This document shows, piece after piece, positions 2,344 to 30,344 of a DNA stretch of 31,836 nucleotides. Position numbers and translations under genes: made by a program. The notes beneath the pieces are model-generated. The model saw nothing but the letters and a program-made list of their open reading frames with translations. It did not search any database and was not told the DNA's origin. Position 1 is the stretch's first letter, and every line of letters starts with the position of its first letter. The stretch is taken from IMG/VR virus record IMGVR_UViG_3300032323_001713, positions 1 through 31,836 of that record, one strand, 5' to 3'. This DNA is from a virus.

Positions 2344-3183
2344 TTATATATTCCTAAGGCGACTCTTTAGTACAGACACCTTATTATCAACAGATTGTAT
2401 TGCTACTCTGTATTTATTTTTTATTTCTGCTATTTTTTCTTTTGCGAAATTGTAGCTTGCCATATCTCCGCTTCTGTATGATCTTGTTTTAAGTTCCTTT
2501 AAGCCACTATCCTTGATTCTTAGATCATCTGCTAATTTCCATCTTAGATCCGAACCATCCTCTACAAGATCTAATATATCAGCTTTTGGTAAACCCATTA
2601 TCTGATTTGTAAATTCTCTTAAAGAAAGATCCCACATACCGTTATTTTCACCTATCGTGTCATCTTCTAAATCTGGCGAATCGTATTTTATTTTTTTAGC
2701 GGAGCTTTCTAGATTTTTCCATTGATCATAAAACTCATTCTCATATTCGGAATCCTTGAATTTTTTTGCCTTCTCGTAAGCATATTGTGCTATTTCAGCA
2801 TCAGCTGATGCTTTTTCCTGATTATAAAGAGCTATGAGTTTTGGGTTATCTTTACATATTCTGGAAATGTTCTTTACTATAAGATTTATTTCACCATCCT
2901 TTGATATTCTTAGAGCATCTAATGCTCTTTTACTCATTAGTGATTTTTGTTTAGCAGCAGCGGTAATATCTGAAGTTTGGCCTCTTTTAGTTTCTGCATA
3001 GAATATATCATAACTAAGTTCATCAGATTTATTTATAAAATCCTTTTCTACCTCTTTCATTTTTTCTACATTGTCCACAATAGAGCTCTTATCGCCTCTT
3101 ATAAATGATGTAATTCCTCCGATAAGATTTTTTATAAATCCTTCATTGACATTTTCTGTTATGAACTCTGAATACTTTTTCAT
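2344..3183 (-). CDS. Internal head protein with T4-like capsid-targeting leader (279 aa)
   Basis: The N-terminus MKKYSEFITE|N closely parallels the capsid-targeting leader of T4 internal proteins (MKTYQEFIAE|A). In T4 this leader directs proteins into the prohead and is cut after Glu by gp21. That family behaviour is established; its use here is inferred. The rest is a charged, Lys/Glu-rich helical protein with no recognised enzymatic motif, as expected of core or internal proteins. It starts five bases after the stop of the 372-residue gene and is probably cotranscribed with it from the box at 4324. Alternative: a prohead-core protein like T4 gp67/gp68. Confidence 0.6.
   Translation of the reverse strand: MKKYSEFITENVNEGFIKNLIGGITSFIRGDKSSIVDNVEKMKEVEKDFINKSDELSYDIFYAETKRGQTSDITAAAKQKSLMSKRALDALRISKDGEINLIVKNISRICKDNPKLIALYNQEKASADAEIAQYAYEKAKKFKDSEYENEFYDQWKNLESSAKKIKYDSPDLEDDTIGENNGMWDLSLREFTNQIMGLPKADILDLVEDGSDLRWKLADDLRIKDSGLKELKTRSYRSGDMASYNFAKEKIAEIKNKYRVAIQSVDNKVSVLKSRLRNI
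2345..2353 (-). promoter_or_regulatory. Late-type promoter box
   Basis: GAATATATAA reads toward the 726-residue gene, about 23 bases before its ATG, and is embedded in the 3' end of the upstream gene. It is followed by GTACATAAAATA, similar to the fibre-gene box at 18678 (GATATATAAGTA). Confidence 0.5.
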
Positions 3184-3188
3184 CTATA

Positions 3189-4307
3189 TTATGCAGCAAC
3201 TTCTATTTGCTTGTTCACCTTACCCAGTATAGTGAAAAGGTTTTCTTTTTCAACTTCTAAATCCGATGCTGGCCAAGTGAAATATTTAAGATTACTAACC
3301 TGTCTTTCTAGACTTAAAAGATTAGTTATGGCTTTGTTTGTTTCTAACGATTCCTTATCATCGGAGGTTGAATCAACTTGCGAAAGTTTACTCTTAAATG
3401 TTTCTATTACATTAGATGCTCTTTTTACTTTAGCATCAAATGCTTTTTGCATCATATTAAAAGTACCCCTGTTTATCTTTTTTGATTCCTCTTTATTCTC
3501 AAACTTGCTTAAAGATCTTTTCGTGTAATCCTCTATATCTTTAATCGTTGCTCTTATTTCTTTATAGAAGTCCTCATTCTTTTCTTCCAGGTCTGGTTTA
3601 ACCAAAGAAGATGTCTCACCTCCAGCTCCCAGTTTATCTTTTTCTTTCGCTAAATTCTCCTTGGCTTTATCTAGATCTTTTTCAGCATCTTTTGGATTGC
3701 CTAGTATTTTTTGTATATCATTTAAATATTCCGAATCTTCTGCTTGTGTAATAAGCTTCTTTTTATAATCAGCTCTTAATTTTTTAGTTTCTACCGAATC
3801 TTCAGCTCTTTTAAGATTGTAATAATCTGCTTTTCTATTATTTTTTTTAGTGATTATATCAACCTGTTTTTCTAATTCGTCCATAATTGAATTATGAGAC
3901 GACATTAAATCTTTAATAAGCTTTTTTAATTTGTTTAATTTATCTACATACTGGGATACCTCGCTAGAATCTGCTTTGTCTTTTTTAAGCTGAGATAAAG
4001 CTGCACTTAGTTTATAAAATTTAGATTCAGATTCATGTTCATCCTTAACAAATTTAATTTCTTCGGACCTCATGTCTTGTAGTATTTTTGATATCTTAGA
4101 AATGTCTCCACCAAGATTCTTAGAAAAGAAGTTAATAATTTTATCCCCTAATGATTCCTTAATTGAAATTAGTGTTTCTTCCAGATCATCATTATTTTCA
4201 TAGCCTTTGTGTGCTAATTTGTTTTTTGCTATTTCAACATCACCGAAAGATTCTAGAAGAGAATTCTTACAATCATTGTAAAATTTAAAATCATTGATAA
4301 TACCCAT
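3189..4307 (-). CDS. Coiled-coil probable prohead core or internal protein (372 aa)
   Basis: No named family is recognised. The protein is almost wholly Lys/Glu/Ser-rich with long predicted coiled-coil stretches, for example about residues 85-175 and 205-260, as in phage scaffold or core proteins. Its leader contains LLE19|S20, a prohead-protease-type site, in a position like the other proteins of this block. It follows gp23 after a strong terminator and has its own GATATATAAAG box, so it heads a separate late unit with the 279-residue gene. A role inside the head is inferred from position, composition and leader. Confidence 0.5.
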   Translation of the reverse strand: MGIINDFKFYNDCKNSLLESFGDVEIAKNKLAHKGYENNDDLEETLISIKESLGDKIINFFSKNLGGDISKISKILQDMRSEEIKFVKDEHESESKFYKLSAALSQLKKDKADSSEVSQYVDKLNKLKKLIKDLMSSHNSIMDELEKQVDIITKKNNRKADYYNLKRAEDSVETKKLRADYKKKLITQAEDSEYLNDIQKILGNPKDAEKDLDKAKENLAKEKDKLGAGGETSSLVKPDLEEKNEDFYKEIRATIKDIEDYTKRSLSKFENKEESKKINRGTFNMMQKAFDAKVKRASNVIETFKSKLSQVDSTSDDKESLETNKAITNLLSLERQVSNLKYFTWPASDLEVEKENLFTILGKVNKQIEVAA

Positions 4308-4409: not shown

Positions 4410-6167
4410 TTAAGCGATACCAGTTGCAGGTACAGTAACTTTTAAAGTTAAGTACATTGTTTGAGGGTGGTGACCAGCCTCTACTAGAGCGTATCTAGAT
4501 TTAACTGCAATTTTAGGTGACATTGTACCTTCAGAGATAGTCTGAATTGATTCAGCCATCATGTAAGGCATAAATTTCATACCTGGTTCGTCATCAGCAC
4601 CTTTTCTTCCAACCAATACTCTCGTATCGCCGAAAGACATGTTTTGATCAACATAAACGGTCATACCAGCGATTGAACCAACTGGATATAAAGTACCGTT
4701 ATTTTGAGTTAACGTGTTTGTGAAAGGAGCAAATGTGAATTGAGAGATATCTTGTAAAGCAGAAGCTACTTGAGAGTTAGTAACGATGAAGTTAGCAGGT
4801 CCTCTTCTTCCTCTGTTTGCTACTACGTTAGCAGCAGCCAAGATTCTTGAGAATAATCTTCTTTGTATAGTTGATTGATTCTCGTATCCGCCTGTAGCGA
4901 TGTCGCCAGGAGTATAGATTGTTAAAGATCCATTATCCTTACCGATGAAAGCTGCAGTTGAAGCTCCACCAGAACCAAGTTTTAAGTTGATGTTCAAGGA
5001 AGCAGCAGATGCACCACCTAATTCAGTGTTTGCAAATTCATAGTGGTTAGACCATCCTAAAGCAAATGCTCTAGATAAGATGTGCTTGTTGATCGCCTGA
5101 GAAACCTCATTAACAAGTGCGTTTTCGATCATAGAAACTACGTCGATACCGAATTGCTTGTTAAGATCTTGGATTTGCTCAGTTGTAACAGAAGCAGCAA
5201 CTTGGAAAGTACCAGCTTCTACAAATTTAGTAAATGTAGAAAGACCTAATGATTTGTAGTAAGTAGTTTCAGCAGTTCCTCTTGACATAGGATCGTAAGC
5301 TTTAGTACCGTCTACATAAGGACCAGACCATGTACCGTCGTTAGCAACGCCAGAACCAGTGAATCCTTGTACGTGATCTTCTAAAGTTTTAACTAATTGA
5401 GCAGCTCCGTTTGCATAACCTACTGTTGAAGAGATTGTGTAAACGTTTGTTGATGTTACGAATGAACCAGAGTAGATAACTGCATCAGCATCGATAGCTG
5501 CAGCAATTGAGAAACCAGTTGTTACTGCTACTACTTGGAAAATTGGGAAACCGTCAATTCTTGAGTTACCAACGAATTTACCAGCTACTAAAGCACCTAC
5601 ACCTGCAGAGTCTAGATCTTTTGTTGAAGAAAGACCAGCAGCACCTAAAAGGTAAGTAGTTCCTACTGTTAAGTTAACAACTGGAGAAGCTGTTGATGTT
5701 GGAACTTTGATTAAGTCTGGAGTGTTTGCAGTGTATGGAGATACAGAGTCAGTACCAGATAATTTACCACCAGCGTAAACATAGTCTAAGTATGATAATA
5801 CGCCTGTAGGACCGCTCATTGGGATAACTGGAACGATGTCAAAACCTACTGTTTTAGCAGCTACCTGAATAGCTAAAGGTAAAAGAGAAGGGAATTTATC
5901 GCCAGAACCAAGACCAGTTCCTGCATAAGAACCACCTGCATAGAAACCAGCAGGACCGCCAGATAAACCTACGTTAGAAGCAGGAGATACTTGGCCCATA
6001 CCGTTTAATACGCCTAAAGAGTTATACGCTCCGGCAGATTCGTTTAATGAGTGGTAATGACAGTATTTAGTTAACCAGTCTAATTTACCTCTCTCTTGAA
6101 TACCTGTTTTGCTTTCCAAGATTGGTGCCCAGGTTTCATAAATTTCATGTTGATTGATAAGTTGCAT
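4410..6167 (-). CDS. 23: Major capsid protein, gp23-like
   Basis: A 585-residue homologue of T4 gp23, the HK97-fold hexamer subunit of the head. The N-terminal segment (WAPILESKTGIQERGKLDWL) parallels T4's WKPLLEG delta region. LNE43|S44 is the likely maturation cut, matching the (L/I)xE rule. Further matches are FDIVPVIPMSGPTG (T4: FDICGVQPMNSPTG), the ELAQDL-type region around EQIQDLNKQFGIDV, and the C-terminal KSRYALVEAGHHP. It is longer than T4 gp23 (521 residues). The extra length falls in the region of about residues 165-300, rich in Gly, Ser, Thr and Val, which could be a surface-exposed insertion. It starts 13 bases after the protease-scaffold gene with no box of its own, so it is probably transcribed from 8281. 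A strong terminator follows. Confidence 0.95.
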   Translation of the reverse strand: MQLINQHEIYETWAPILESKTGIQERGKLDWLTKYCHYHSLNESAGAYNSLGVLNGMGQVSPASNVGLSGGPAGFYAGGSYAGTGLGSGDKFPSLLPLAIQVAAKTVGFDIVPVIPMSGPTGVLSYLDYVYAGGKLSGTDSVSPYTANTPDLIKVPTSTASPVVNLTVGTTYLLGAAGLSSTKDLDSAGVGALVAGKFVGNSRIDGFPIFQVVAVTTGFSIAAAIDADAVIYSGSFVTSTNVYTISSTVGYANGAAQLVKTLEDHVQGFTGSGVANDGTWSGPYVDGTKAYDPMSRGTAETTYYKSLGLSTFTKFVEAGTFQVAASVTTEQIQDLNKQFGIDVVSMIENALVNEVSQAINKHILSRAFALGWSNHYEFANTELGGASAASLNINLKLGSGGASTAAFIGKDNGSLTIYTPGDIATGGYENQSTIQRRLFSRILAAANVVANRGRRGPANFIVTNSQVASALQDISQFTFAPFTNTLTQNNGTLYPVGSIAGMTVYVDQNMSFGDTRVLVGRKGADDEPGMKFMPYMMAESIQTISEGTMSPKIAVKSRYALVEAGHHPQTMYLTLKVTVPATGIA

Positions 6168-6180
6168 TTTGTAAAAAATG

Positions 6181-8262
6181 TTATTTTTTAAATCTAGCGC
6201 CTAAAGCTTCTGAAAGATTATCTAGATATTCTCTAGAAACTCCTTTTGGCTGAGGTGCTGAGATTGTTTGATTTTGGGATTCGTCTATTCTTTCGACGTT
6301 TGCCTTTGTAACTGTGATACCTCTTGTAGCCCAGAAATTCTGGATTTGGTAAGGGGTGTCTAGTTTATGGAACTTGCTTTGAGCGATAACTGAAGCCTTT
6401 TGTGACTCTGTCATCATTTCCCACGAAGCTCTATATTTTTCTGGCATTAGATCTAGGAATTTTTCTCCGGATTGATTTTGTTCAACCAAAGCTTTACCCA
6501 TAAGGTCAATTACCTCTTTTTCGGATGAGTAATTGTTTTCATTTAAGGATTTAGCGACCTTTTGTTTTTGGCCTTCGTGCAGTGATAAGAATTCTCTTTG
6601 TCCTTGTTCGCCCATAAGCTTTAAGAAAGGATAGTTCTTATTTTCTGCTATTTGATCTGTCTTTTGTTTACTGACAGTATTTAATAAATCGTCTATTTTG
6701 TTAGAAATTCCAGTGTAGTTACCAGCAAATCCTGAGGTATTTGTGCTCTCGGAAACTGCTTTAACCACTGCTTCTTTAACTTCTTTAGTTCCTGAAGATG
6801 CATTTACAGATTCTGCAATGTATTCTGCATAACTAATATTGTTAGAAAGTTTTTCTGCAATATACTCGCTGTAGTGTACAGTCTTGTCTAAATTTTCTCC
6901 TAGGTAGTCAGAATAAGCTAAACCTTTGTCTAGGTTTTCTGCTAGGTACTCAGAGTAAGAAATGTTCTTGTCTAGGTTTTCTGCTAGATACTCAGAGTAA
7001 GAAATATTTTTATCTAGATTTTCTGCTAAGTATTCTGCATAAGAAATATTCTTGTCAACATTTTCTGCTAGGTACTCAGAGTAAGAAATGTTCTTGTCTA
7101 ATTTTTCAGCTAGGTATTCGCTGTATCTAATATTCTTGTCTACGTTTTCTCCTACATATTCTGCATAAGCAATAGATTGATCAACCCTTTCTGTCAATCC
7201 TTTAACTGCTGTCATGTTCGTGTCTACATTTTCTGCAATATATTCGGAATAAGAAATGTTATTGTCTAAGTGTTCTGCTAGATATTTGCCATAAGAGATA
7301 GACTTGTCTAGGTTTTCTGCTAGATATTTTGAGTAAGAAACAGAGTCTTCTAGGTTTTCTGCCAAATATTCACCATATTTAATAGAAGCTTCTAGATTCT
7401 CTGCTAAATAGTCAGCATATTTTTCTAATTTTAATACTCTTTCCTCAAGAGAAGAAGATTCTGTTATTTTGGAAGATTCTTTAACCCCCTTCAAAGATTC
7501 AATGGATCCTTTAATAGTATCCATTTCTTTTTTGATTAGTCTAGAATATCCATTCATTTCTTCCGCTGTAACGAAATTATTTTCCATGATTAAACTCTTA
7601 TTTGGCTCCTTATCTAGAAGCTTTTGTATTTTTTCTTGATCGTTAATTCTATATATCTTAAAATTAGAATCATTTTCTAATCCTAAGCTTTCGTTCATAA
7701 GAGGAAGACCTTTTAGAATAGATTCCGCCATGCTCTTTTCTTCTAGATTGTAACCAAGACTTTCATAAACTCTTTCTAGTTGTGCATTCTCAAATCCAGG
7801 ATCAGCTACTAGATCGTAAGTAAAAATCTTTTTGATCTGTACTTTTTTGTTTTCCATTACGTTACCTGCTGCTCTTGAAGAGATAGAAACTGGAATACCA
7901 GCATCAACTAAAGACTTAGCAATTTTACCTGCAGGGGTATCTAGAAGCTTTACCTTGATTCTTAGGGTTCTATCCCCTTGATTGTATGCTAACTCCTCAA
8001 CTAAGTGAGAAATATTTTTAAGGGAAACGTCGAATTCTTTAGGGTGGTCTAACTCACCTACTAATCTTTTCTGTTCGATCTTTTCTTTCAAATATTGAAG
8101 ATGAGGAAGATATTCTCTTTCCTCGTATATTCTTTGATTAGAGTTTTCTTTACCAAAAACTGCTGCAATACCTTCCAGATAGTATTCGTTACCACTTTTC
8201 TCGGTCTTCAGATTATGTGAAGATTTTTCCAAGACTAAAACGAATTCGGGATTAAGACTCAT
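6181..8262 (-). CDS. 21: Prohead core protease fused to repeat-rich scaffold (gp21-gp22-like)
   Basis: Residues 1 to about 175 match T4 gp21, the serine protease that matures proheads. There is an N-terminal YYLEGIAAVFGKENSNQRIY segment, the His motif GELDHP (H73) and the Ser motif PVSISSRAAG (S128/S129). VADPGF (D154) is a candidate third residue. Residues about 185-280 are a linker containing ITE268|S269, a self-cleavage-type site. Residues 282-491 are 15 tandem 14-residue repeats of the form YSEYLAENLDKNIS. Residues 492-693 are helical and Gln/Lys/Glu-rich. T4 makes protease and scaffold (gp22) as separate proteins encoded side by side before gp23. Here one frame spans both and is followed at once by gp23, which fits a fusion. 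The protease call is firm; scaffold is inferred from position, helical composition and repeats. Confidence 0.88.
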   Translation of the reverse strand: MSLNPEFVLVLEKSSHNLKTEKSGNEYYLEGIAAVFGKENSNQRIYEEREYLPHLQYLKEKIEQKRLVGELDHPKEFDVSLKNISHLVEELAYNQGDRTLRIKVKLLDTPAGKIAKSLVDAGIPVSISSRAAGNVMENKKVQIKKIFTYDLVADPGFENAQLERVYESLGYNLEEKSMAESILKGLPLMNESLGLENDSNFKIYRINDQEKIQKLLDKEPNKSLIMENNFVTAEEMNGYSRLIKKEMDTIKGSIESLKGVKESSKITESSSLEERVLKLEKYADYLAENLEASIKYGEYLAENLEDSVSYSKYLAENLDKSISYGKYLAEHLDNNISYSEYIAENVDTNMTAVKGLTERVDQSIAYAEYVGENVDKNIRYSEYLAEKLDKNISYSEYLAENVDKNISYAEYLAENLDKNISYSEYLAENLDKNISYSEYLAENLDKGLAYSDYLGENLDKTVHYSEYIAEKLSNNISYAEYIAESVNASSGTKEVKEAVVKAVSESTNTSGFAGNYTGISNKIDDLLNTVSKQKTDQIAENKNYPFLKLMGEQGQREFLSLHEGQKQKVAKSLNENNYSSEKEVIDLMGKALVEQNQSGEKFLDLMPEKYRASWEMMTESQKASVIAQSKFHKLDTPYQIQNFWATRGITVTKANVERIDESQNQTISAPQPKGVSREYLDNLSEALGARFKK
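6790..7419 (-). repeat. Fifteen 42-bp coding repeats (14-residue units)
   Basis: In-frame tandem repeats encode units like YSEYLAENLDKNIS. The central copies (such as YSEYLAENLDKNIS and YAEYLAENLDKNIS) are nearly identical, the outer ones are diverged, and unit 6 (AVKGLTERVDQSIA) is the most degenerate. Most units contain LAE, IAE or a near form, matching the prohead protease consensus (L/I)xE. Confidence 0.95.
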
Positions 8263-8291: not shown

Positions 8292-8320
8292 AAAATCAAC
8301 CTTAATATGTTGATTTTTTT
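8292..8320 (-). terminator. Stem-loop terminator between 850-residue gene and protease gene
   Basis: AAAATCAAC (8292-8300) pairs with GTTGATTTT (8309-8317) around an 8-base loop that holds the TAA stop of the upstream gene. On the minus strand the T run is only the end of the stem. On the plus strand it is longer (seven T). It is probably a modest or bidirectional terminator. Confidence 0.5.
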
Positions 8321-10854
8321 GCTGAACCTGTTTCTTCTCCTCCTTCTTCACCTTCTTTACCAACTTCTTCTCCATTTTCATCTATTTCCTGATAGGTTCC
8401 TTCTACGTGTGCTGTAACATAGGATCCAGGAAGTTTAGCTAGGTTTTGTGATAGGATACTCTCGTTTCTTTCTAGTACATCAACAAATCTTAGTGTTTCT
8501 GCTTTAGCAAGATCCCAATCAACGTCGTTTAAACTTGATAACGGGGAAACTGATTTCATATTAGGGAATCCTTCAACGTCTCCCATTTTAGCTCTAACAC
8601 TTTGTATATCTGCTACAAGATCTTCACCTTCAGATTCAACATAAAGTCTTTTAAGTTCTGCCCATGCAGATACTTGTTTATCGCTATCATCTACTGTCCA
8701 ACCTCCTTTAATTACTGCAAGAGTTTGAGAAATAGATGCCCAATCATCATCACTAACGTATCCATCTAATGTATTAACCAATCCCTTTGCTACACCAAGT
8801 AATAGATTTCTTTCTATAAATCCTTCAACTGTTGTTATAACAAATGTGTCTCTTCCTGATAGAAAGTCTAGTGCTGCACCACCAACTGCTCCTCCTATTA
8901 ATCCCCCAGCAACTCTCTTTGCGATAGGAATTGCTCCATATTTAGCAAAATATCCAGCGGAAACTGCGCTTAATCTCGATGCTGTTGTTACTGTTGCCTT
9001 TGCTGCAACTTTACCTACTGCTCCTGCTCCAATTTTCTGGGCTAGTTTGGTCAATCCCAATTTAGTTGCTCCTTTAATACCTAAGGATCTAAGACCGGTT
9101 GATCCTGCTTTTAATAAGTAACCTGATCCTGGTATGGCAAAACTTAATGCAGTAATTGCTACCTCTTTAGACCAGAAGCTTAGTAAGCTTTCGTCGAAAG
9201 AAATAGGATATGATCCAGTATTTACATATTTAAGACCTTTCCAATCATCTCTTGTTGGTACTGGTTCTTCTGTACCGCCGGTTGCTCCTGTTGCTCCTGT
9301 TGCTCCGGTTCCACCTGTTGGATTTGGAACAGGAACTATAGAACTTAAACATGCTGCATCCATCTGTCCTGAAGCATAGGTTGCACAAATACAATCTGCG
9401 ATAGACTTGCCGCTTCCAGCAACGTTTTCGTCGATAACATATCCTGCTTCTGATAGTACACTAGAAAAATCTGAGAATGATAAAACAGGCATACCGGTTT
9501 TATATTCTCTTTCGAAGATTCTATTCTCTAGTACTTTAGAATTTTCTTCAGAATTTAAGGATTCTTTTGTTGCTGGTGGGGTAGGAACCATCTGTCCTCC
9601 TGCCATTATTGTGTTATAAATATCAAGTGTTAAATCTCCAGTAGGATTAAAAGCTGAAGATTTAGTAAGATATGCATATGCTATATTTGCTAACTTTGCT
9701 GTTACCTTACCATATTTACCGTCTGCTCCACCTGCTTTATTGATAATATCAGCGATACATCCTCCCATACTCATCAACTTGCCCTGAAGCTGTGCAACCT
9801 CAGAACATTTTTTTGCTGTAATCTGGATAGGAAATTGACATCCAGTTGTTGGAACTGGTGGGGTTGGTTTTGGAGGTCTAGGTGGTTGTCCTTCACCTTG
9901 ATTTACTACAGGTGCTGGAATATTAACATACACGCAAGCATTTTTAGATGCATCAAATGTCATACCAGTAGGGCAAACCGTAACTGCTGGTGGGGGAGCA
10001 GGAATGTTTGAAAGTCTATATTTTAATTTTTGGAATTCTTCTCTTTGTCTAATTATTTCATTAATAAGATTTTTAACTTGAATTCTATAATCTTTCCCTT
10101 TTATATCACCGCTGGCAGTCTTAACCTTGCCCATAACGATAAATCCTTTTCTTCCACCGACAACTGATAATGATTTAGCCTTTGCAAGATAGTCTTGTCC
10201 ATCCTGTGCAAATTTTTGAATTCCTGCGTCACCTGATAGAGATTTATTAGAAAGTGCAGCTGTTGTTTCACCAGCAAATGAAGTAGCAGTATCCAATACA
10301 TTTTTAGATAATTGAAAATACCATTTGTCATTTTCACCTTCTTCTGAATTTGCTTCTTCTCCGGTTCTTGTTTCGGATTGCTCTGAAATGTATCTGGAGA
10401 TTAAGCTTTCGTTCTGTTGCATCTGTGTCTTAACCGCCTGTAAACCACCAATTGTAGTCCCAGTAAATTCTGACATTTTATCTATAACAGTCTTTATTGC
10501 TTTGGCGTCTTCCCCAGTAGCACTTTTTAAAGTGTCAAATAACGTGCTAAGGTAAGATTTTGTTTGATTTAATGGCTGAGCTTGATTTTTATCAAGTTTA
10601 GCAAGCTCATCTATTTTACCATTCAATTCGCTTTTAAGAACTTCTAGAGAACTAGACTGAAGTGCCTTATCCATGAATAATTTAAAACCATCTGGTGTTC
10701 TTATAGCTTCATCGGATCCATTCATTAATGTATTAACGAAAGTATCATAAATAGCTCTTAAAAGAGCATCAGTGTCTACCTTATTTTGGGCTTCAAATAG
10801 ATCTTTTTTAAGAGATTCGTAGATTGGATTATATCCTTTGTAAATTCCTGACAT
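8302..10854 (-). CDS. Large probable virion protein with PGBD-like domain and hydrophobic core (850 aa)
   Basis: No named family. Visible parts are as follows. The N-terminus has IYE13|S14 and LFE21|A22, both prohead-protease-type sites. Residues 1-280 are helical. A Pro-rich stretch lies at 284-336. A peptidoglycan-binding-like unit lies at about 350-418 (VAQLQGKLMSMGG, then ADGKYGKVTAKLA). A GATGATGATG linker lies at 513-527. A Gly/Ala-rich hydrophobic region at about 565-670 could be membrane-active. The tail is acidic. Several Cys residues (294-356 and 488-503) may form disulfides. The linker and PGBD-like unit recur in the 726-residue protein at 141-2321. It sits between a nucleotidyltransferase and the prohead protease and has its own late-type box. 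A virion protein that meets the cell envelope during DNA entry is an inference; tail lysozyme or tape measure are less likely because catalytic motifs and a long uninterrupted coiled coil are missing. Confidence 0.6.
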   Translation of the reverse strand: MSGIYKGYNPIYESLKKDLFEAQNKVDTDALLRAIYDTFVNTLMNGSDEAIRTPDGFKLFMDKALQSSSLEVLKSELNGKIDELAKLDKNQAQPLNQTKSYLSTLFDTLKSATGEDAKAIKTVIDKMSEFTGTTIGGLQAVKTQMQQNESLISRYISEQSETRTGEEANSEEGENDKWYFQLSKNVLDTATSFAGETTAALSNKSLSGDAGIQKFAQDGQDYLAKAKSLSVVGGRKGFIVMGKVKTASGDIKGKDYRIQVKNLINEIIRQREEFQKLKYRLSNIPAPPPAVTVCPTGMTFDASKNACVYVNIPAPVVNQGEGQPPRPPKPTPPVPTTGCQFPIQITAKKCSEVAQLQGKLMSMGGCIADIINKAGGADGKYGKVTAKLANIAYAYLTKSSAFNPTGDLTLDIYNTIMAGGQMVPTPPATKESLNSEENSKVLENRIFEREYKTGMPVLSFSDFSSVLSEAGYVIDENVAGSGKSIADCICATYASGQMDAACLSSIVPVPNPTGGTGATGATGATGGTEEPVPTRDDWKGLKYVNTGSYPISFDESLLSFWSKEVAITALSFAIPGSGYLLKAGSTGLRSLGIKGATKLGLTKLAQKIGAGAVGKVAAKATVTTASRLSAVSAGYFAKYGAIPIAKRVAGGLIGGAVGGAALDFLSGRDTFVITTVEGFIERNLLLGVAKGLVNTLDGYVSDDDWASISQTLAVIKGGWTVDDSDKQVSAWAELKRLYVESEGEDLVADIQSVRAKMGDVEGFPNMKSVSPLSSLNDVDWDLAKAETLRFVDVLERNESILSQNLAKLPGSYVTAHVEGTYQEIDENGEEVGKEGEEGGEETGSAKKSTY

Positions 10855-16183: not shown

Positions 16184-18658
16184 CTATCCCTTCTTTATTA
16201 TTGATTCTAATTCTTCTATCTTAATCTGTTGCTCCTTAATAGCTTGTATTAATAGAGAAGCTAGGTTCCCGTATGAAACCATTAATGTTCCATCCTCCTT
16301 TTCAGTTATAACTTCAGGGAGAACCTTTTGAACCTCCTGTGCAATAACCCCCGCTCTTCTTGATTTATCTTCAGAGTCTTTTCTGGTAAAGGTTACACCC
16401 CTTATTTCCTTTATTTTTTCTATAGCATTCTCTATTTCTTCTACGTTTTCTTTAACTGAAATATCGGAGAAAGCAGCAATATCATAATCTGCATAGATTG
16501 AAATATTAGATACTTGACCTTCTATTTCTAAAGGATATGCTGGATTTGTACCTGCCCCTATACTTAATCTCTTGTTGGTATTGTCCCAGTATAATCCAGA
16601 ATCAGAACCTAAGGTTGTTGACCCGGTAAAAAATGCAACTTGTGTTGAAGTACCGTTTGCACCACCTACACCAGAAGTCCCAGATGATCCAGCATTTCCG
16701 TTAGCTCCTGAAGTTCCTGAAGATCCTGCATTACCATTAGCTCCTGAGGTTCCTGATGATCCAGCATCCCCGTTAGCTCCCGAAGTTCCTGACGATCCAG
16801 CATTTCCATTAGCTCCTGAGGTCCCCGACGATCCTGAAGATCCTGATGATCCTGCCGATCCAGCATTTCCATTAGCTCCTGATGTTCCTGATGACCCATT
16901 AGCTCCCGAGGTTCCTGAGGATCCGGAAGATCCGGAAGATCCAGAAGAACCCGATGATCCGGAAGATCCAGAAGAACCTGAGGATCCAGAAGAACCAGTT
17001 CTTCCACTTGATCCTGCTGATCCGGAAGTTCCAGATGTTCCTGAAGATCCTGATGGACCAACTGCACCGTCTAGATTCATTGCTAGAGATTCGCCTGCTG
17101 GATATACTCCTGTCCCTTCTACATCGGTCACCAAGATTGACATTTCCCCAGCTAGACCATCATACGATAAAACAGTTCCTGCTATATAATTAGACTCGTC
17201 TACCGCTATAATGACACTTTGTGCTATTGTATATGCAAGTTCTAATTCTTCAGTGTTAAAATAAATAGTACTTCCCAACGACACACCACCAAGATTTAAT
17301 GATAATTGTGTTGCATGTCCGCTGTCAACATAAAATGCTATTGTATAATATCTATCCCCAGAAAGACCTGAAGAACCGGACGTTCCAGTACTTCCACTTG
17401 ATCCTGAGGTTCCATTAGTTCCTGAAGAACCTGAAGTTCCTGAAGAACCCGAAGTTCCGCTCTGTCCAGAAGATCCAGATGACCCAAAAGTTCCATTTAC
17501 CCCAGAGGTACCGCTCGATCCCGAAGTTCCCGAAGAACCTGACGAGCCAGAAGTTCCTGACGATCCCGAAGTTCCTGTACTTCCTGACGATCCCGAAGTT
17601 CCGTTTATTCCAGAAGTTCCTGCTGCTCCTGTCACACCCCTTGGCCCCTGAGATCCTGAATCACCCGTTGCACCGGTAGGACCCATACTTCCCGAAGTAC
17701 CCGAAGATCCTGATATCCCGCTAGATCCACTTAATCCGCTAGATCCTGATGTACCAGAGCGTCCGGAGGATCCACTAGTTCCTGAAGGACCTGTTGGTCC
17801 GTTAGGAGGACCAGTAGGTCCGGTTGAACCGGTATTTCCCGTAGGACCAGTTGGCCCGGTCGATCCGATATATCCACTGAAATCTACCCAAGATTTAGCT
17901 CCTTCTATTCCTCCTAGCATTTCGCCCGAAGTTGGTGTAACCGAAATATTGGACGTAGTTAATCCTATTGTTTCGCCATTAAGTTCAGCAGAATATCCAG
18001 GTAAAGACTCTATAGTTACTGTTGTTGCATCAGAGGATGCTTTAATTGGATATAAAGTAGTGTCTATTGCAAGTATATCAGAAACTATTTTTTGTCCAGT
18101 TTGATAAACTGAACCCTGCCATGTTGTTGTTGTGATTGTAGTACCGTTAAATACTATACTTATAGTTCCCCCTGATGTACCTGAATTTATCGAAAAAACA
18201 AATCTAGAAGGAACATCACCCTGATACACGTAACCCTGGAATGCATTACCTACGAATCTAACATCCCCTGGTTCTGGTGGTTTGGTTATCTCTGTGTTTC
18301 TATCAACTCTAAATTTTACTCTACCCCCTGTTCCTATTCTATTATAAAGAACTAAATCACCGCCAACGTAACCATTATTTAAAATGCTAAAAGAAGATCC
18401 TGTAATACCTCCATTAGTTCCATCCAGTCCAATTTTAACCGGTCCTGTGGCTGGAAGCTTTATACCATTTGATTTTACTGTGTTTAGTAAAAAGTTTGAA
18501 TTTTGAGAATCGAACCCGGGTATTTCTATGGTTATACCAAAAGTAGACTGCAGAAGATTTATTGCATCTTTTATTTGACGAAAATTTTCATCAATTATTA
18601 GGTCCTGGTTTCCCTGGTTAGATACAGGGTTTATATTTAAATCTGTTAGTTCTTTCAT
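16184..18658 (-). CDS. Collagen-like tail fibre with S74 intramolecular chaperone
   Basis: An 824-residue trimeric fibre. Residues 1-260 are a beta-rich N-terminal region, with an early helix at 20-40 that may attach to the tail. Residues 262-434 and 534-668 are Gly-x-y collagen-like repeats, mostly GSSGTSG and GANGNAG, split by a globular insert (about 435-533). A beta-rich head (669-720) precedes the C-terminal Peptidase_S74 chaperone (731-824). There SDISVKENV supplies the Ser-Lys dyad (S731, K736) that in this family self-cleaves after the trimer folds. GVIAQEVQKVLPEVI and a C-terminal coiled coil are typical. It has a consensus late box and leads a five-gene run. Confidence 0.93.
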   Translation of the reverse strand: MKELTDLNINPVSNQGNQDLIIDENFRQIKDAINLLQSTFGITIEIPGFDSQNSNFLLNTVKSNGIKLPATGPVKIGLDGTNGGITGSSFSILNNGYVGGDLVLYNRIGTGGRVKFRVDRNTEITKPPEPGDVRFVGNAFQGYVYQGDVPSRFVFSINSGTSGGTISIVFNGTTITTTTWQGSVYQTGQKIVSDILAIDTTLYPIKASSDATTVTIESLPGYSAELNGETIGLTTSNISVTPTSGEMLGGIEGAKSWVDFSGYIGSTGPTGPTGNTGSTGPTGPPNGPTGPSGTSGSSGRSGTSGSSGLSGSSGISGSSGTSGSMGPTGATGDSGSQGPRGVTGAAGTSGINGTSGSSGSTGTSGSSGTSGSSGSSGTSGSSGTSGVNGTFGSSGSSGQSGTSGSSGTSGSSGTNGTSGSSGSTGTSGSSGLSGDRYYTIAFYVDSGHATQLSLNLGGVSLGSTIYFNTEELELAYTIAQSVIIAVDESNYIAGTVLSYDGLAGEMSILVTDVEGTGVYPAGESLAMNLDGAVGPSGSSGTSGTSGSAGSSGRTGSSGSSGSSGSSGSSGSSGSSGSSGSSGTSGANGSSGTSGANGNAGSAGSSGSSGSSGTSGANGNAGSSGTSGANGDAGSSGTSGANGNAGSSGTSGANGNAGSSGTSGVGGANGTSTQVAFFTGSTTLGSDSGLYWDNTNKRLSIGAGTNPAYPLEIEGQVSNISIYADYDIAAFSDISVKENVEEIENAIEKIKEIRGVTFTRKDSEDKSRRAGVIAQEVQKVLPEVITEKEDGTLMVSYGNLASLLIQAIKEQQIKIEELESIIKKG
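16655..17059 (-). repeat. Collagen-like coding repeat, distal block
   Basis: Tandem Gly-x-y codons coding GSSGSSGSSG then GTSGANGNAG units. The 15-residue unit NGNAGSSGTSGA recurs almost identically several times, pointing to recent expansion or slippage. Confidence 0.92.
17357..17875 (-). repeat. Collagen-like coding repeat, proximal block
   Basis: Gly-x-y codons start as GPTGPTGNTGSTGPTGPP, then turn to GTSGSSG units. The block is separated from the distal block by a globular insert of about 100 residues. Confidence 0.92.
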
Positions 18659-23054: not shown

Positions 23055-24773
23055 TTACGGTGCTACCTCTTCTGCTGCGGGTGCTTCTGCTGCTGGTTCT
23101 GCTGCAGGTGCTTCCGCTGCTGGCTCTGCTGCTGGGGTTTCTGCTGCTGGGGTTTCTGCTGCTGGGGTAGCTTCTGTGGTATCAGAAGGTGTAGTGCTAC
23201 CTGCTGCAGCTTCTGTTGAAGCAGCTGCCTCTTTACCTTCTTCCTCTTCCTTCTTTTTATAGATATCATTAACTCTTTTATCCTCATTAGTTAATCCGAG
23301 GAATTTGTTAATTAGGAATTCTTGACTAAAATAAGGGATTTCTTCGTCGCCCTTCTTTTCTTTTATCTCAGATAAACCTGATATAAAATCGATCTTTTTA
23401 ATAAGTTGTTCTATTTCTTTAGATTCCCCAAATTGATTATCGGAGTTAAACTTAACCCCTAGTTGTGATCTAAAAACCGGATCATTATCTAATTCTGGAT
23501 AGTCTAGAGTCATTTGTATCCACAGAGGCTTCAATAGGATCTCTTGATATATGGATCTAATTCTATTAATGAATTTATTATATCTAATCTCGTCTCTTTC
23601 CGCGGATTCAGCTCCTATTTTATAAGTACCTACTGTTCCACCAGATCTAGCAGCAAATCTGTTAAATGGTATTTTAGAATCTGCCTTTAACTTATTAAAG
23701 AAATAAACAACAGCATCTATCACATTTAAATTAGGTCCTCCACTATTGATCGTTTCGATTTTAGGGGATTCTCCACCTTGTACAGGGAAAAGATAGTTTT
23801 TATAGAATTGAAGATTAGGTCTTCCGTTAACACTTAATTCTCCGGAGTCTGTATTAAGTTTTATATCCTCTTTATACATCGTCATTAATTCACCAAGTGT
23901 TTCTTTGGCCTTTTGAGGAGATCTTGATCCTACAGGAATTGTCATCTTAAGACGAAAAGATGCATTCATAACGTTCCAGATAATTCTGGTATGCTCCATG
24001 ATCTTTAGAAGATTATGGGATCTTATTAATCTTTCAACGTAACTTGTTCTTGATGTTGTATTACCTTTCGCAAAAGAAATGTATATTACCTGTGCATCAT
24101 AAAGTTTTCTTTCTCTAACGCTGTCATTAAAATATTGATACCAGATCTGGACTGCTTGCCCTCCTGGATTTTTTTCTATAGAAGGCGTTAATGAAGTCGG
24201 ATCTAATTCTTTAAATCCAACTATCTGTTTTCCGTCATCAGAATAAACAATTTCAAACGATAAAAATCCGTCTATTAAGAATTGTCTGAAGTATTGCCAT
24301 GCTGAAATACCGTTATTAAATCCGTGTGAAACGTAGATCTTTCTAAAATTTTCTCTTAGAGCATCTGCTATTTCATCTTTTAGATCTAAATTAACTAAAG
24401 AAAGATTGCAACAAAAATTTCTATCATCATAAACAATAGCTTCGTCTGCTAAAATATCTAAGATCCATTCAATCTCTGCATTTAGTGCAAAGCTTCTTAA
24501 AAAATCTCTTTTAAATGGATAGTCTTTATCGAAATAAGCAATATACTTCCTGTTTGAAGTATCCTGTGCAGCCAAATTAAAAACAAAATCCTCGTCTGAA
24601 TCAGTCAGAGCTAATCTTTGTCTCATAGCAGCTTCGGAAACGCCTATGGCTTGAGAATTTTTCACAACAAGATCTTTATACTCCATACCGAAAGATCCGA
24701 TTTTACTCACGGTCCTCAGTATGCGACCTATATTAGGGTTTTTCTGAGAAAAATTATCAATGAATCCTGACAT
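23055..24773 (-). CDS. 20: Portal vertex protein, second gp20 paralogue
   Basis: A 572-residue gp20-type portal. The T4 landmark DNAVSEIVSDAIVYED appears as WILDILADEAIVYDDRN. Further shared landmarks are GFKELDPTSL, YISFAKGNTTSRTSYVERLI, HTRIIWNVMNASFRL, the SGELSVNGRPNLQF segment and FLGLTNEDKRVND (T4 MTDEEI region). It differs from the upstream copy throughout but aligns almost end to end. Its C-terminus ends in about 60 residues of Ala/Pro/Glu repeats (AAETPAAEPAAEAP) that the other copy has only in short form. It starts three bases after the first portal's stop, so they are cotranscribed. Both copies keep the core landmarks, so neither looks like a decaying copy. Confidence 0.92.
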   Translation of the reverse strand: MSGFIDNFSQKNPNIGRILRTVSKIGSFGMEYKDLVVKNSQAIGVSEAAMRQRLALTDSDEDFVFNLAAQDTSNRKYIAYFDKDYPFKRDFLRSFALNAEIEWILDILADEAIVYDDRNFCCNLSLVNLDLKDEIADALRENFRKIYVSHGFNNGISAWQYFRQFLIDGFLSFEIVYSDDGKQIVGFKELDPTSLTPSIEKNPGGQAVQIWYQYFNDSVRERKLYDAQVIYISFAKGNTTSRTSYVERLIRSHNLLKIMEHTRIIWNVMNASFRLKMTIPVGSRSPQKAKETLGELMTMYKEDIKLNTDSGELSVNGRPNLQFYKNYLFPVQGGESPKIETINSGGPNLNVIDAVVYFFNKLKADSKIPFNRFAARSGGTVGTYKIGAESAERDEIRYNKFINRIRSIYQEILLKPLWIQMTLDYPELDNDPVFRSQLGVKFNSDNQFGESKEIEQLIKKIDFISGLSEIKEKKGDEEIPYFSQEFLINKFLGLTNEDKRVNDIYKKKEEEEGKEAAASTEAAAGSTTPSDTTEATPAAETPAAETPAAEPAAEAPAAEPAAEAPAAEEVAP

Positions 24774-24776
24774 TTA

Positions 24777-26417
24777 TTATAGTTTAAATTCTTCTTCTTC
24801 GCCCTCTGCCGCTGGTGCAGCTTCTTCTCCCTCAGCAGGCGGGGTTTCTGTTCCTGCAGCTTTAGCTGCTTCTTCTTCCTCCTTCTTTTTCTTTTCTAAA
24901 GCAGCTTTCTTTGCATTCTCGTTAGCTAATCTGTCATCATCTGTCATTCCTAGATATTTGTCCAATACATATTTAATGGAAAAATACGGTTTACCGTCAG
25001 CATCCAAAAGTCCTGCAATCTTTGTTACCTGGTCTTTTCTTGCATTTAGTATCTCCATATACCTAGTTTCTGCAAATGAGTTATCTTTAACATAATCTAA
25101 ACCAAATTGGCTTTTAATCATGAAGTCTTTTCTGTGTTCTGGATAATCTAAGCAGAACTGAACCCAAAGAGGTTTAAGTAATATGTCTTGGAAAATAGAT
25201 CTTAGTCTTGTAATAAACTTAAAAAACCTAATTTCTTCCTGATCTAGGCCTTCTGCATTTCCGCTAAACGTTCCTTGTGTTCCTCTATCTTCTCGATCAA
25301 ATCTAGAGTATGGAATCTTAGAATCCAATTTTAGTTTATCCGCAAAGTATGCTAATGCTTTTAAATCGCTAAAAGGAGTGGCATCACCGCTACCTGTTAA
25401 AGGTGTTATATCTGGGGTTCCGTTCGGGGTAGAAGGCATTAAATAATTCTTGAAGAACTGGATGTTAGGTCTTCCGTTTACAAATAATTCCCCGCTGTCA
25501 GAGTCTAATCTAATATCTTCCTTATAGATACTCATTAACTCTGCAAGGCTTTGTTTTGCTTTTTGTGGAGATTTAGTACCAACTGGAACAGTCATTGTTA
25601 ATCTGTACGATGAGTTCATCACGTTCCAGATTACTCTTGTGTGCTCCATGATTCTTAGTAGGTTAAAAGACCTAATTAATCTTTCAACATAACTTACTCT
25701 AGTCGTAGTATTTCCCTTTGCGTATGAAATGTAAATAATCTGAGAATCATATAATTTTCTTGATAGAGAAGGATTATCAGGGTATTGAATCCAACACTCG
25801 ATAAAACTGCCATCTTGTTGTTTTTCCACAGAGGGTAATAAAGACGAAGGATCTAATTCTTTGAATCCTATAATATTTTTACCCCTTGTATCAAATACTA
25901 TCTCAAATGCTAAAATACCATCGATAAGAAAACTTCTAAAGAAGTGCCAAGCAGAAATTCCCTCGTTAAATCCAAAAAGGTTGTAAATTTCCTTGTACCT
26001 ATCCTGTATTTTGTTTTCTATTTTTTCCCCGATGCCCATAACATCGACTGAGGTAAAATATGAGAAAAAATTCTTATCATCATAAACTATAGCCTCATCA
26101 CAAACGGTATCTAAAATGAATTCTATTTCGGGATTAATTGAAAAATTCCTAAGATATGTTTTTTTGTTAATATAATCCCTGTCAAAATATGCTATGTATT
26201 GTTTGGCTGTAGTATCTGCCTTTCGGATTGAATATAAAAAATTTTCATCTTGTATTCCCCCGTTTTTAAGAAATAGAGCCTCAGTTGTACCTACGGCTTG
26301 GGAGTTTTTAACAACCATATCCCCATAGCTCATTCCGAACGATCCTATCTTTCTAAGATTACTCATCATGTTGCTAAAAAAAGGATTAACCCTGTTGTCT
26401 CCTAAAAATCCGGCCAT
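24777..26417 (-). CDS. 20: Portal vertex protein, first gp20 paralogue
   Basis: A 546-residue gp20-type portal, the dodecameric ring through which DNA enters and leaves the head and on which the terminase docks. Landmarks: FILDTVCDEAIVYDDKNFFS, GFKELDPSSL, YISYAKGNTTTRVSYVERLI, HTRVIWNVMNSSYRL and SRFDREDRGTQGTF. The C-terminal YLGMTDDDRLANENAKK precedes an acidic Ala/Pro/Glu tail. Length is close to T4 gp20 (524). It has a GATATATACAATAAATA box 15 bases before its ATG, within the end of the upstream gene, and a TAATG overlap with that gene. Confidence 0.95.
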   Translation of the reverse strand: MAGFLGDNRVNPFFSNMMSNLRKIGSFGMSYGDMVVKNSQAVGTTEALFLKNGGIQDENFLYSIRKADTTAKQYIAYFDRDYINKKTYLRNFSINPEIEFILDTVCDEAIVYDDKNFFSYFTSVDVMGIGEKIENKIQDRYKEIYNLFGFNEGISAWHFFRSFLIDGILAFEIVFDTRGKNIIGFKELDPSSLLPSVEKQQDGSFIECWIQYPDNPSLSRKLYDSQIIYISYAKGNTTTRVSYVERLIRSFNLLRIMEHTRVIWNVMNSSYRLTMTVPVGTKSPQKAKQSLAELMSIYKEDIRLDSDSGELFVNGRPNIQFFKNYLMPSTPNGTPDITPLTGSGDATPFSDLKALAYFADKLKLDSKIPYSRFDREDRGTQGTFSGNAEGLDQEEIRFFKFITRLRSIFQDILLKPLWVQFCLDYPEHRKDFMIKSQFGLDYVKDNSFAETRYMEILNARKDQVTKIAGLLDADGKPYFSIKYVLDKYLGMTDDDRLANENAKKAALEKKKKEEEEAAKAAGTETPPAEGEEAAPAAEGEEEEFKL

Positions 26418-28088: not shown

Positions 28089-30344
28089 TTAGTTTTTTTT
28101 TGTAGCAGGAGCTTTAGCTAGTGTAGCTCTGCTCAAAGGCTCATGGTCTTTTTTACCATTCTTTTTGTGATTTCCCGGTGCAACTGCCAAATGTCCCTTT
28201 TTACCTTTAACCACACCTTTTACTTTTTCTTTCTTTCCAGCAGGAGCTTTAACAAGCGGTAAATTCTTTTGAGATTCTACCATTGCTAAATTGTGATCGT
28301 TCAAATCTTCAATAAATTTTGGGGATGATTTTGATGATCCACCTGGTGCTTCTGCTAAATCGTGTTTACCACTTACCCCTTTAGGGTCTTTAGAAGTTGA
28401 AGATGTCTTTGATGGTGCTTCAGCTAATTCGTGATCTGCTAGATTTTCTATGTCACTAACTGATCCTCCTGAATTAGATCCCGGTGCTTTAGCTAAATTA
28501 TGATTCTTTAAGTTTTGTATAAATTTACCAGATCCACCTGTTGTTTTTACTGGTGCCTGTGCTAATCCCATATCGGATTCTAATCCTTCATTAGTCTCAT
28601 CAAGATCTTCGTCCATATCATTAACTCTGCTTAATTGAATATTTTTAATTTCGTCAGAGATATCAGTAACGTCGTTGAAGAAAAATTCTCCGGTTCTTCC
28701 ATTTTCAAACATAACTGTGTATGTTTTAGAATTTCCGTTTACACCTACAACTTTACCCTTTTCGCCGTTTCTATTGATTTTAACATCGGTATTTATACCA
28801 TATCCTTCACTCTCAGTAATTACTTTTTTCTTAGCTCCTTTTTCAAATCTTTCAATTTCTACTGAGATCTGATTCCATTTTTCTTTCAATAGATTAGATT
28901 CTGAAGAAAGCATTTTTTGTGCCTCTTTAATTTCATCTGAACTTTGAAGAGATGGATTTGTTTCTAGTGCTTTGTTTATCTTATTGATTTCACTTTCTAC
29001 TATCTCTAAATTCTTTTTAATCTCGTTTCTATCGTTTTTCATAATAGAAAGAATTTGGTCTTCCTTTTCTAAAAATTGTGTCATTGACTCAGAAAGATCA
29101 AATCCTAAGAATTCTTTTACTAGATTAACTGCTTGACTTCCGTTTCCTTCGAAAAGCTCGTTTTTCTTCATAGCAGGATTTACCTTATGTACGAAAACTC
29201 TATTTTCAAATTTAAATACGTTAGCCTCTACTCCTTCGTATATTTTAGAAACGATTTTTTTTCCAAAATCAATCTCTGAAAGATAGTTAGCAGCTTCTAC
29301 TACTTGTACTGCATGCTCTATTGCATTAGCAGATCCTTGAAATCCATTTCTTAATTCAAAAGATAGAGTAAATCCTAATTTATCTTCTGCTACTCTTTTA
29401 CCATTAAAGAAAATATTTTTAGTGTCTGTTTCGCTTTCAAATACAACGGATAATTTGTTTTTACCCATATAAAGATCCAATCCGCTTTCGTTGATTTTAA
29501 CATTAGGATTAGAAAGTGCTAGTACAGATTTTAGAAATTTACCAGAAAGTCTTCCGGCTTCTTCTCTTTCCATGATTCTTACGCCATCTTCTGTTGCTCT
29601 GAAGAATCTGTTTGATGTTACAAAAACTGAAGAGTTTTCGGTAACTAAACTAGGAGCGATGATTGATTTAACATCGCAGTTAGAAGAATTAACTTTAACA
29701 TTAAATTTATTTCCAGTTTCGTTCTGCAAATTAGATACTCTCTCAACAAGGGATCTAACCGATGGATTGAATGCCCATTTCTTAAGATCTACCAAAAGTT
29801 TTTCGGAAACTCTATCTTCGGATGCTAACCAATTTCTCATAGTTTCAACAATAGAAGAGTATAAGTCTCTACCACCAGATCCGTTGATTTCTTCGATTGC
29901 TTTAGCAACCTCGATCTCTTTTCTGTTGCTTTCAAATGCTTTTTTCAGATTAGACAAAGCTGGTTTTACGTTCTTTTCCCATGCAAAGTTTTCTAATTCT
30001 GAGATCATTGCCTCTATAAGGAATGCCTCGGAAAGACCTTTGATTGATACGTGATTAATATATTTGTCAACCAGGATTTTAGCTTCTGCCAATTCAACAA
30101 AAGAGGTATTATTTAAAGCCATTGCAGTCTCTAAAACTCCAACAGAAAAAGAAGATTTTATTGCTTTTCTGTGTTCTGTAGACATGTTTTCAATCTCTTT
30201 TTGTAAACCATCTGTATATGAGCCAGCAGCACCTGGAGTAAAACCGCCATTGCCACCCCAGCTTTCGTTTAAAAGAGCAGCTGCAGCTTTCGCTTTTTCC
30301 ATTTTTATCTGTGACAGATTATCGTCGAAATTAATTCTATCCAT
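28089..30344 (-). CDS. Large probable internal head/virion protein with C-terminal LAxAP repeats (751 aa)
   Basis: No named family. The N-terminal leader ends LLNE27|S28, the same LNE|S as in the major capsid protein, so prohead-protease processing is plausible. Residues 40-400 are mixed helical and beta. Residues about 420-505 form a coiled coil. ITE511|S512 offers another cleavage-type site just before a small SH3/KOW-like barrel (about 517-560; GEKGKVVGVNGNSKTYTVMF). Residues 590-751 carry seven LAxAP-like motifs (such as HNLAKAP and HDLAEAP) spaced mostly by 23 residues in a Gly/Ser/Lys-rich basic tail that could touch DNA. It has two late-type boxes upstream and a terminator downstream, so it is a single-gene late unit. 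Function unknown. Confidence 0.6.
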   Translation of the reverse strand: MDRINFDDNLSQIKMEKAKAAAALLNESWGGNGGFTPGAAGSYTDGLQKEIENMSTEHRKAIKSSFSVGVLETAMALNNTSFVELAEAKILVDKYINHVSIKGLSEAFLIEAMISELENFAWEKNVKPALSNLKKAFESNRKEIEVAKAIEEINGSGGRDLYSSIVETMRNWLASEDRVSEKLLVDLKKWAFNPSVRSLVERVSNLQNETGNKFNVKVNSSNCDVKSIIAPSLVTENSSVFVTSNRFFRATEDGVRIMEREEAGRLSGKFLKSVLALSNPNVKINESGLDLYMGKNKLSVVFESETDTKNIFFNGKRVAEDKLGFTLSFELRNGFQGSANAIEHAVQVVEAANYLSEIDFGKKIVSKIYEGVEANVFKFENRVFVHKVNPAMKKNELFEGNGSQAVNLVKEFLGFDLSESMTQFLEKEDQILSIMKNDRNEIKKNLEIVESEINKINKALETNPSLQSSDEIKEAQKMLSSESNLLKEKWNQISVEIERFEKGAKKKVITESEGYGINTDVKINRNGEKGKVVGVNGNSKTYTVMFENGRTGEFFFNDVTDISDEIKNIQLSRVNDMDEDLDETNEGLESDMGLAQAPVKTTGGSGKFIQNLKNHNLAKAPGSNSGGSVSDIENLADHELAEAPSKTSSTSKDPKGVSGKHDLAEAPGGSSKSSPKFIEDLNDHNLAMVESQKNLPLVKAPAGKKEKVKGVVKGKKGHLAVAPGNHKKNGKKDHEPLSRATLAKAPATKKN
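28107..28565 (-). repeat. 23-residue coding repeat with LAxAP motifs
   Basis: Motif Leu residues fall at 594, 617, 640, 663 and 686 (constant 23), then 697, 719 and 742. Well-kept copies read KFIQNLKNHNLAKAP, DIENLADHELAEAP and KFIEDLNDHNLAMVE. Confidence 0.8.

Follow-up and report, generated by a model that had tools for sequence, protein, structure and literature searches.

What does a phage gene encode when it begins as a prohead protease and continues, in the same frame, into an array of what could be the protease's own cleavage sites? The question is raised by a 31,836-base virus record (the whole stretch analysed here, called the window), in which a preliminary description had placed such a gene at positions 6181-8262. 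We confirmed the open reading frame on the minus strand, running from an ATG at 8262 to 6181 and encoding 693 amino acids; it consists of a gp21-type protease and a scaffold part in one frame. Its features and those of its neighbors are collected in Table 1.

Table 1. Coordinates in the window of the fusion gene's parts and of neighboring genes
Feature	Position	Strand	Basis or remark
S77 (T4 gp21-type) prohead protease domain, residues 1-166	7765..8262	-	Pfam, phrog_207, Foldseek, H/S spacing
Junction, predicted autocleavage sites VYE167/S (7759-7770) and MNE191/S (7687-7698)	7687..7770	-	would release the protease
Conserved internal ATG (Met226), predicted second start, scaffold-only form of 468 aa	7585..7587	-	Met in 47/52 clusters
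Array, 15 x 14 residues, consensus YSEYLAENLDKNIS, [LI]xE in 14/15 units	6790..7419	-	predicted long alpha-helix
C-terminal helical domain, residues 540-650 (FLxLL...MPxxxxxxWExLxESQK...YQIxNFWxTR)	6313..6645	-	alignment of 42 relatives
gp23-type major capsid protein, predicted other substrate, LNE43/S	4410..6167	-	Pfam Gp23, E 2.4e-39
Two tandem gp20-type portal genes	23055..26417	-	Pfam Portal_T4, E 1.1e-65 and 6.8e-67
751-aa protein, [LI]xE-enriched	28089..30344	-	21 vs 10.1 expected, z 3.8

A protease and a 14-residue array in one frame

Four lines of evidence agree with the proposed gp21-type protease. Pfam Peptidase_S77 (PF03420, the T4 gp21 family) matches residues 22-140 with an E value of 2.7e-8, which passes the cut-off, and phrog_207 (head maturation protease) matches residues 16-209 (E 1.5e-35). 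T4 gp21 (5jbl) is the top solved structure for the AF2 model of the protease part (Foldseek E 8.7e-9), and the predicted catalytic residues His73 and Ser128, which lie in the GELxHP and SSR motifs, correspond to His85 and Ser140 of T4 with a spacing of 55 in both proteins.

The fusion is widely conserved. IMG/VR scans with the window protein returned 41 loci, and scans with the versions from a 642-kb and a 462-kb phage returned 80 and 22 more; clustering at 85% identity gave 52 fusion clusters of viral contigs. The fusion is in one frame in all 52, including phage records of 462-735 kb, and no split version was found among them. Apparent split genes in loci L117-L126 were rejected, being merely low-complexity acidic linkers. 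Annotated collections add LR756500-LR756504 and LR745206 (462-735 kb), the Lak phages, PTm1, pT24, and Flavobacterium phage MaF61. In the last, what looks like a far longer fusion (L048 7863-12077) is a protease-led protein of 1404 aa; LNE[SNA] sites are numerous in it, and PHROG offers no match. Some of these fusions are stored in public protein databases under protease names, and the fusion has already been seen as a name, since annotations of the kind "prohead core scaffolding protein and protease" already exist, among others for PTm1 and pT24; our literature search found no description of the repeat array or its meaning. Repeats are common in tail fibers, and the window does contain a tail-fiber-like ORF with long collagen-like GTSGSSG/GPTG repeats (16184-18658, minus strand), so an external or tail-associated repeat protein, or else a misassembled ORF, might be considered. 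We find either scarcely credible, given the fusion to a prohead protease in a single frame that is always whole in 52 independent clusters.

The repeats themselves are as first described: residues 282-491 correspond to exactly 15 tandem units of 14 residues, LAE or IAE occurs in 12 of them and [LI]xE in all but one, and the P1' residue is Asn in ten units, Lys in two, and His, Arg, and Ser in one each. AF2 places helices at residues 270-385 and 395-488, which would make the repeat region a long helix, with a pLDDT of about 40 over the array, that is, at low confidence. To describe the unit, we used 630 units from the 52 relatives, with the phase anchored on the aromatic positions alone and the Glu not required. 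The putative P1 residue, Glu7, is present in 94% of the units and has the lowest entropy of all unit positions; position 5 (P3) holds L, I, or V with few exceptions, while P1' is loose, with Asn in 62%. This looseness resembles the T4 motif, which is L/I-X-E with few other determinants and at which gp21 breaks gp22 into multiple fragments (PMC9026906). Tyr1 and Tyr4 are nearly as conserved as Glu7 (88-91%), and many huge phages carry one diverged unit lacking the Glu (ENKSLKSTT), which indicates that helix packing also shapes the unit. The conservation of the array is thus partly structural.

Could it be wholly structural? In that case the array would be a helical rod in which LxE follows from the needs of the helix; cuts would be confined to the junction and possibly to further sites beyond the array, and the rod would leave the head or stay in it whole. 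The single long helix predicted by AF2 fits such a rod, as does the strong conservation of Y1, Y4, and the hydrophobic positions. It also fits that the P1' residue of the array is unlike that of most other candidate sites in the window: it is mostly Asn, compared with Ser in the window's major capsid protein (MCP), although several relatives' MCPs have Asn. However, a Glu as the lowest-entropy position is not what a purely structural rod leads one to expect, and the distribution of the motif beyond the array, described below, also speaks against it. We consider a purely structural array unlikely.

Distribution of the (L/I)xE motif

We counted the motif as Leu or Ile at position i with Glu at i+2 and took the expectation from shuffled sequence. 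The idea that the T4 gp21 motif, (L/I)xE, is densely distributed in the scaffold was borne out, with 24 sites in the scaffold region of the window protein against 9.8 expected (P 0.0005). Outside the array, the scaffold region still has 10 sites against 5.3 (P 0.03). The excess in the fusion, about 2.5-fold, is equal to that in scaffolds of gp22 type or at the gp22 position: the observed and expected numbers are 16 and 5.7 for T4 gp22, 13 and 5.2 for D479, 17 and 7.4 for Va1, 19 and 8.9 for PA5oct, and 23 and 7.5 for Munch. The fusions of two cultured phages, whose scaffold sequence is unrelated, gave 21 against 8.0 (PTm1) and 18 against 7.6 (pT24), and MaF61 gave 32 against 17.0. Since the counts exceed expectation in all those compared, scaffolds without common sequence share the [LI]xE excess. 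Among offsets from -7 to +7, the +2 offset is leading or near-leading in the scaffolds counted, and leading in the nonrepetitive ones.

The excess is also specific to few proteins. In the window, the whole fusion reaches z 4.5 and every other protein stays below 3, with the exception of the 751-aa ORF (Table 1). In five huge-phage neighborhoods, z exceeds 3 only in the fusions (3.5-5.0) and in a 617-aa homologue of that ORF. In ten relatives the array is degenerate or short, yet the scaffold excess is retained (z 2.8-5.4). The enrichment outside the array, in relatives whose arrays have decayed, and in gp22 scaffolds of unrelated sequence, together with its absence from neighboring proteins, is difficult to reconcile with a motif dictated by the helix alone. 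As to the 751-aa protein, it has an LNE/S at residue 27 and, toward its C terminus, LAEAP/LAKAP repeats, its homologue in the 462-kb phage record (L045 5129-6979) has a z of 3.6, and it is possibly a further prohead core protein.

Cutting in silico at every site gave pieces with a median length of 14 residues for the window, 15 for T4 gp22, 14.5 for D479, 14 for Munch, 15 for PA5oct, 16 for PTm1, and 12 for pT24. Shuffled window sequence gave 9.8 pieces with a mean maximum of 151. The array thus regularizes what other T4-type scaffolds have irregularly. On motif distribution and conservation, the protease of the fusion is predicted to cut after (L/I)xE.

Gene position, junction, and predicted internal start

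The position of the gene likewise agrees with a scaffold role. In the window, the gp23-type capsid gene follows immediately downstream of the fusion gene, and five huge-phage records have these genes arranged as portal, fusion, MCP; the T4 order is 20-67-68-21-22-23. Four other phages (PA5oct, Munch, Va1, and D479) have a protease gene that stops short of a scaffold part, and the scaffold position before the MCP gene is taken by a gene of its own. From this synteny, and from the separate gene in these four phages, it follows that the C-terminal 500 residues of the fusion occupy the place of gp22. The window's two portal genes are adjacent and both full-length, while a single portal gene is found at that place in the five huge-phage relatives. 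Gene position also bears on whether the repeats might be an internal head protein or an injected one, packaged because the fused protease targets it into the head, and no scaffold at all. T4-type phages do package many cleaved internal proteins, and giant-phage proteases trim them (PMC5694885). Still, such proteins usually have one N-terminal site and not one per 14 residues, the fusion sits at the 21-22 position, and there is no other scaffold candidate between portal and MCP; we therefore give a packaged protein very little weight.

Resemblance to gp22 does not extend to sequence. The C-terminal domain (mean AF2 pLDDT 67) is alignable in the Lak, PTm1, and pT24 phages, but it belongs to no Pfam family and its family profile found no sequence match in the PDB. 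Compared with the gp22 profile by hhalign, it scored a probability below 1%, and the fusion has no phrog_237 match, while gp22 of T4, D479, and Va1 does match phrog_237. A kinship of the scaffold part with gp22 families, which the preliminary description had left to a homology search, was thus not supported. Since sequence homology is undetectable, the scaffold part would act like gp22 without being identified as gp22. The C-terminal domain may bind the shell.

Candidate cleavage sites are conserved in neighboring proteins as well. The complete MCP relatives shown have [LIM]xE/[SN] at residue ~43. Ser follows the site in the window clade, while the huge-phage MCPs have Asn (INE/N, IHE/N, MNE/N, LYE/N), the residue that also follows LAE in the array. 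Four neighboring families of candidate head proteins have a conserved N-terminal [LIV]xE/[SGNQ] (LFE/S, IYE/S, LIE/S, LNE/G); these proteins of no known family are encoded at 141-2321, 2344-3183, 3189-4307, and 8302-10854 of the window (minus strand), and their site resembles T4 capsid-targeting propeptides.

At the junction between protease and scaffold, an ITE/S had been named as the site that could release the protease. It is present at residues 266-269, but it is not conserved, and such a site occurs in only 8 of the 52 relatives. The conserved sites predicted to be cut lie earlier than ITE268/S, at VYE167/S and MNE191/S. N190 and E191 are invariant in 27 aligned sequences, and a [LIVM][NYH]E[SAQDG] site within 75 residues past the TYD motif is found in 52/52 clusters. 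T4 gp21 has an ITE/S near its own C terminus.

Further downstream, Met226 is flanked on both sides by variable, indel-rich residues and is followed by [FY]VT-E in the 47 clusters that have it, and in the remaining five, Met-[ED]-[NK] lies a short way upstream and the junction bears an INE/[GSA] site. We read Met226 as a conserved internal start whose product would raise the amount of scaffold above that of protease. Separate scaffolds that serve this purpose are lambda Nu3 and herpesvirus UL26.5. The earlier picture of a scaffold tethered to its own protease is accurate as to the one-frame fusion, but it is probably true of part of the product only, because the conserved internal Met predicts free scaffold too. 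Synonymous-codon constraint around Met226 is suggestive, with few comparisons behind it. We looked for an internal promoter before Met226; there is no GATATATA there, and no promoter or ribosome-binding signal is shown at this place. The same GATATATA is conserved ~10-30 nt before the fusion starts (window 8262 and L001-L052) and also before other late-looking genes, and it is a candidate late promoter. The sequence AAATAA, 15-21 nt upstream of the MCP gene, was rejected as a motif; it belongs to the Phe-Lys-Lys-stop with which the fusion gene ends.

Proposed assembly pathway and comparison with known systems

Taken together, these results lead us to propose that the fusion is probably the gene for the prohead core in a large phage of T4 type, encoding a protease and a scaffold that would undergo self-release and then shredding at (L/I)xE; cleavage, the order of events, and dual translation are what we infer. 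The full-length protein would join the core along with the scaffold-only form translated from Met226. The rods of helical repeats, together with the C-terminal domain, would form a core on which the gp23-type shell assembles, as gene position and the analogy with gp22 suggest. After assembly, the protease would release itself at VYE167/S and MNE191/S, and the freed protease would trim the capsid protein at LNE43/S and cut the scaffold after (L/I)xE. Because a site recurs in the array every 14 residues, or every few helical turns, the scaffold would fall into peptides of ~14 residues, which would exit the head before DNA entry.

In the huge-phage lineage, a scaffold peppered with (L/I)xE may have become an exact 14-residue polymer, in which the unit is both a building block of the core rod and a cleavage unit and which one gene yields in two forms, with and without protease; we regard this view as evenly poised. 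If it is true, the number of units could tune scaffold length and perhaps head size. The analysis names a scaffold candidate for a clade reaching 735-kb genomes, at the top of the known size range for phages, and it offers a general computational signature for cryptic scaffolds, namely (L/I)xE about every 14-15 residues with flanking proteins that lack the excess. Peptide mass spectrometry could now test scaffold removal directly, also in PTm1 and pT24, which are in culture. An internal start is predicted as well, as in the strategy of lambda and herpesvirus.

A protease fused to scaffold in one frame is known from lambda gpC/Nu3, P2 gpO, and herpesvirus UL26/UL26.5, and in lambda and herpesvirus a separate scaffold is also made from the 3' part. 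The proteases of lambda and P2 belong to other families, and none of the three systems is known to have an array of cut sites. T4 gp21 and gp22 (with gp67/gp68) are like the present system in protease family and fold, position beside gp23, the (L/I)xE motif, site density, and fragment length. T4 differs in having two genes where one frame is found here and in a gp22 without a tandem array, and gp22 sequence homology is undetectable here.

Closer likenesses are found among the fused forms. The Prevotella Lak phages have the same fused protease and an alignable C-terminal domain, but an acidic disordered linker replaces the array. The Tenacibaculum phages PTm1 and pT24 have a one-frame protease and long acidic LxE-rich scaffold beside the MCP, with a C-terminal domain that aligns, but neither has the YSEYLAEN array or a Met at the scaffold start. 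The scaffold of PTm1 (L051 4579-6273) has an independent repeat of other sequence and length, and its units, longer and irregular compared with those of the window, contain LSE/S or LSE/G. In LR756500-LR756504 and LR745206, an acidic linker follows the array, unlike in the window, and the array of the 462-kb phage has decayed, but these phages have the same fusion, the same 14-residue unit, and the same portal-fusion-MCP order.
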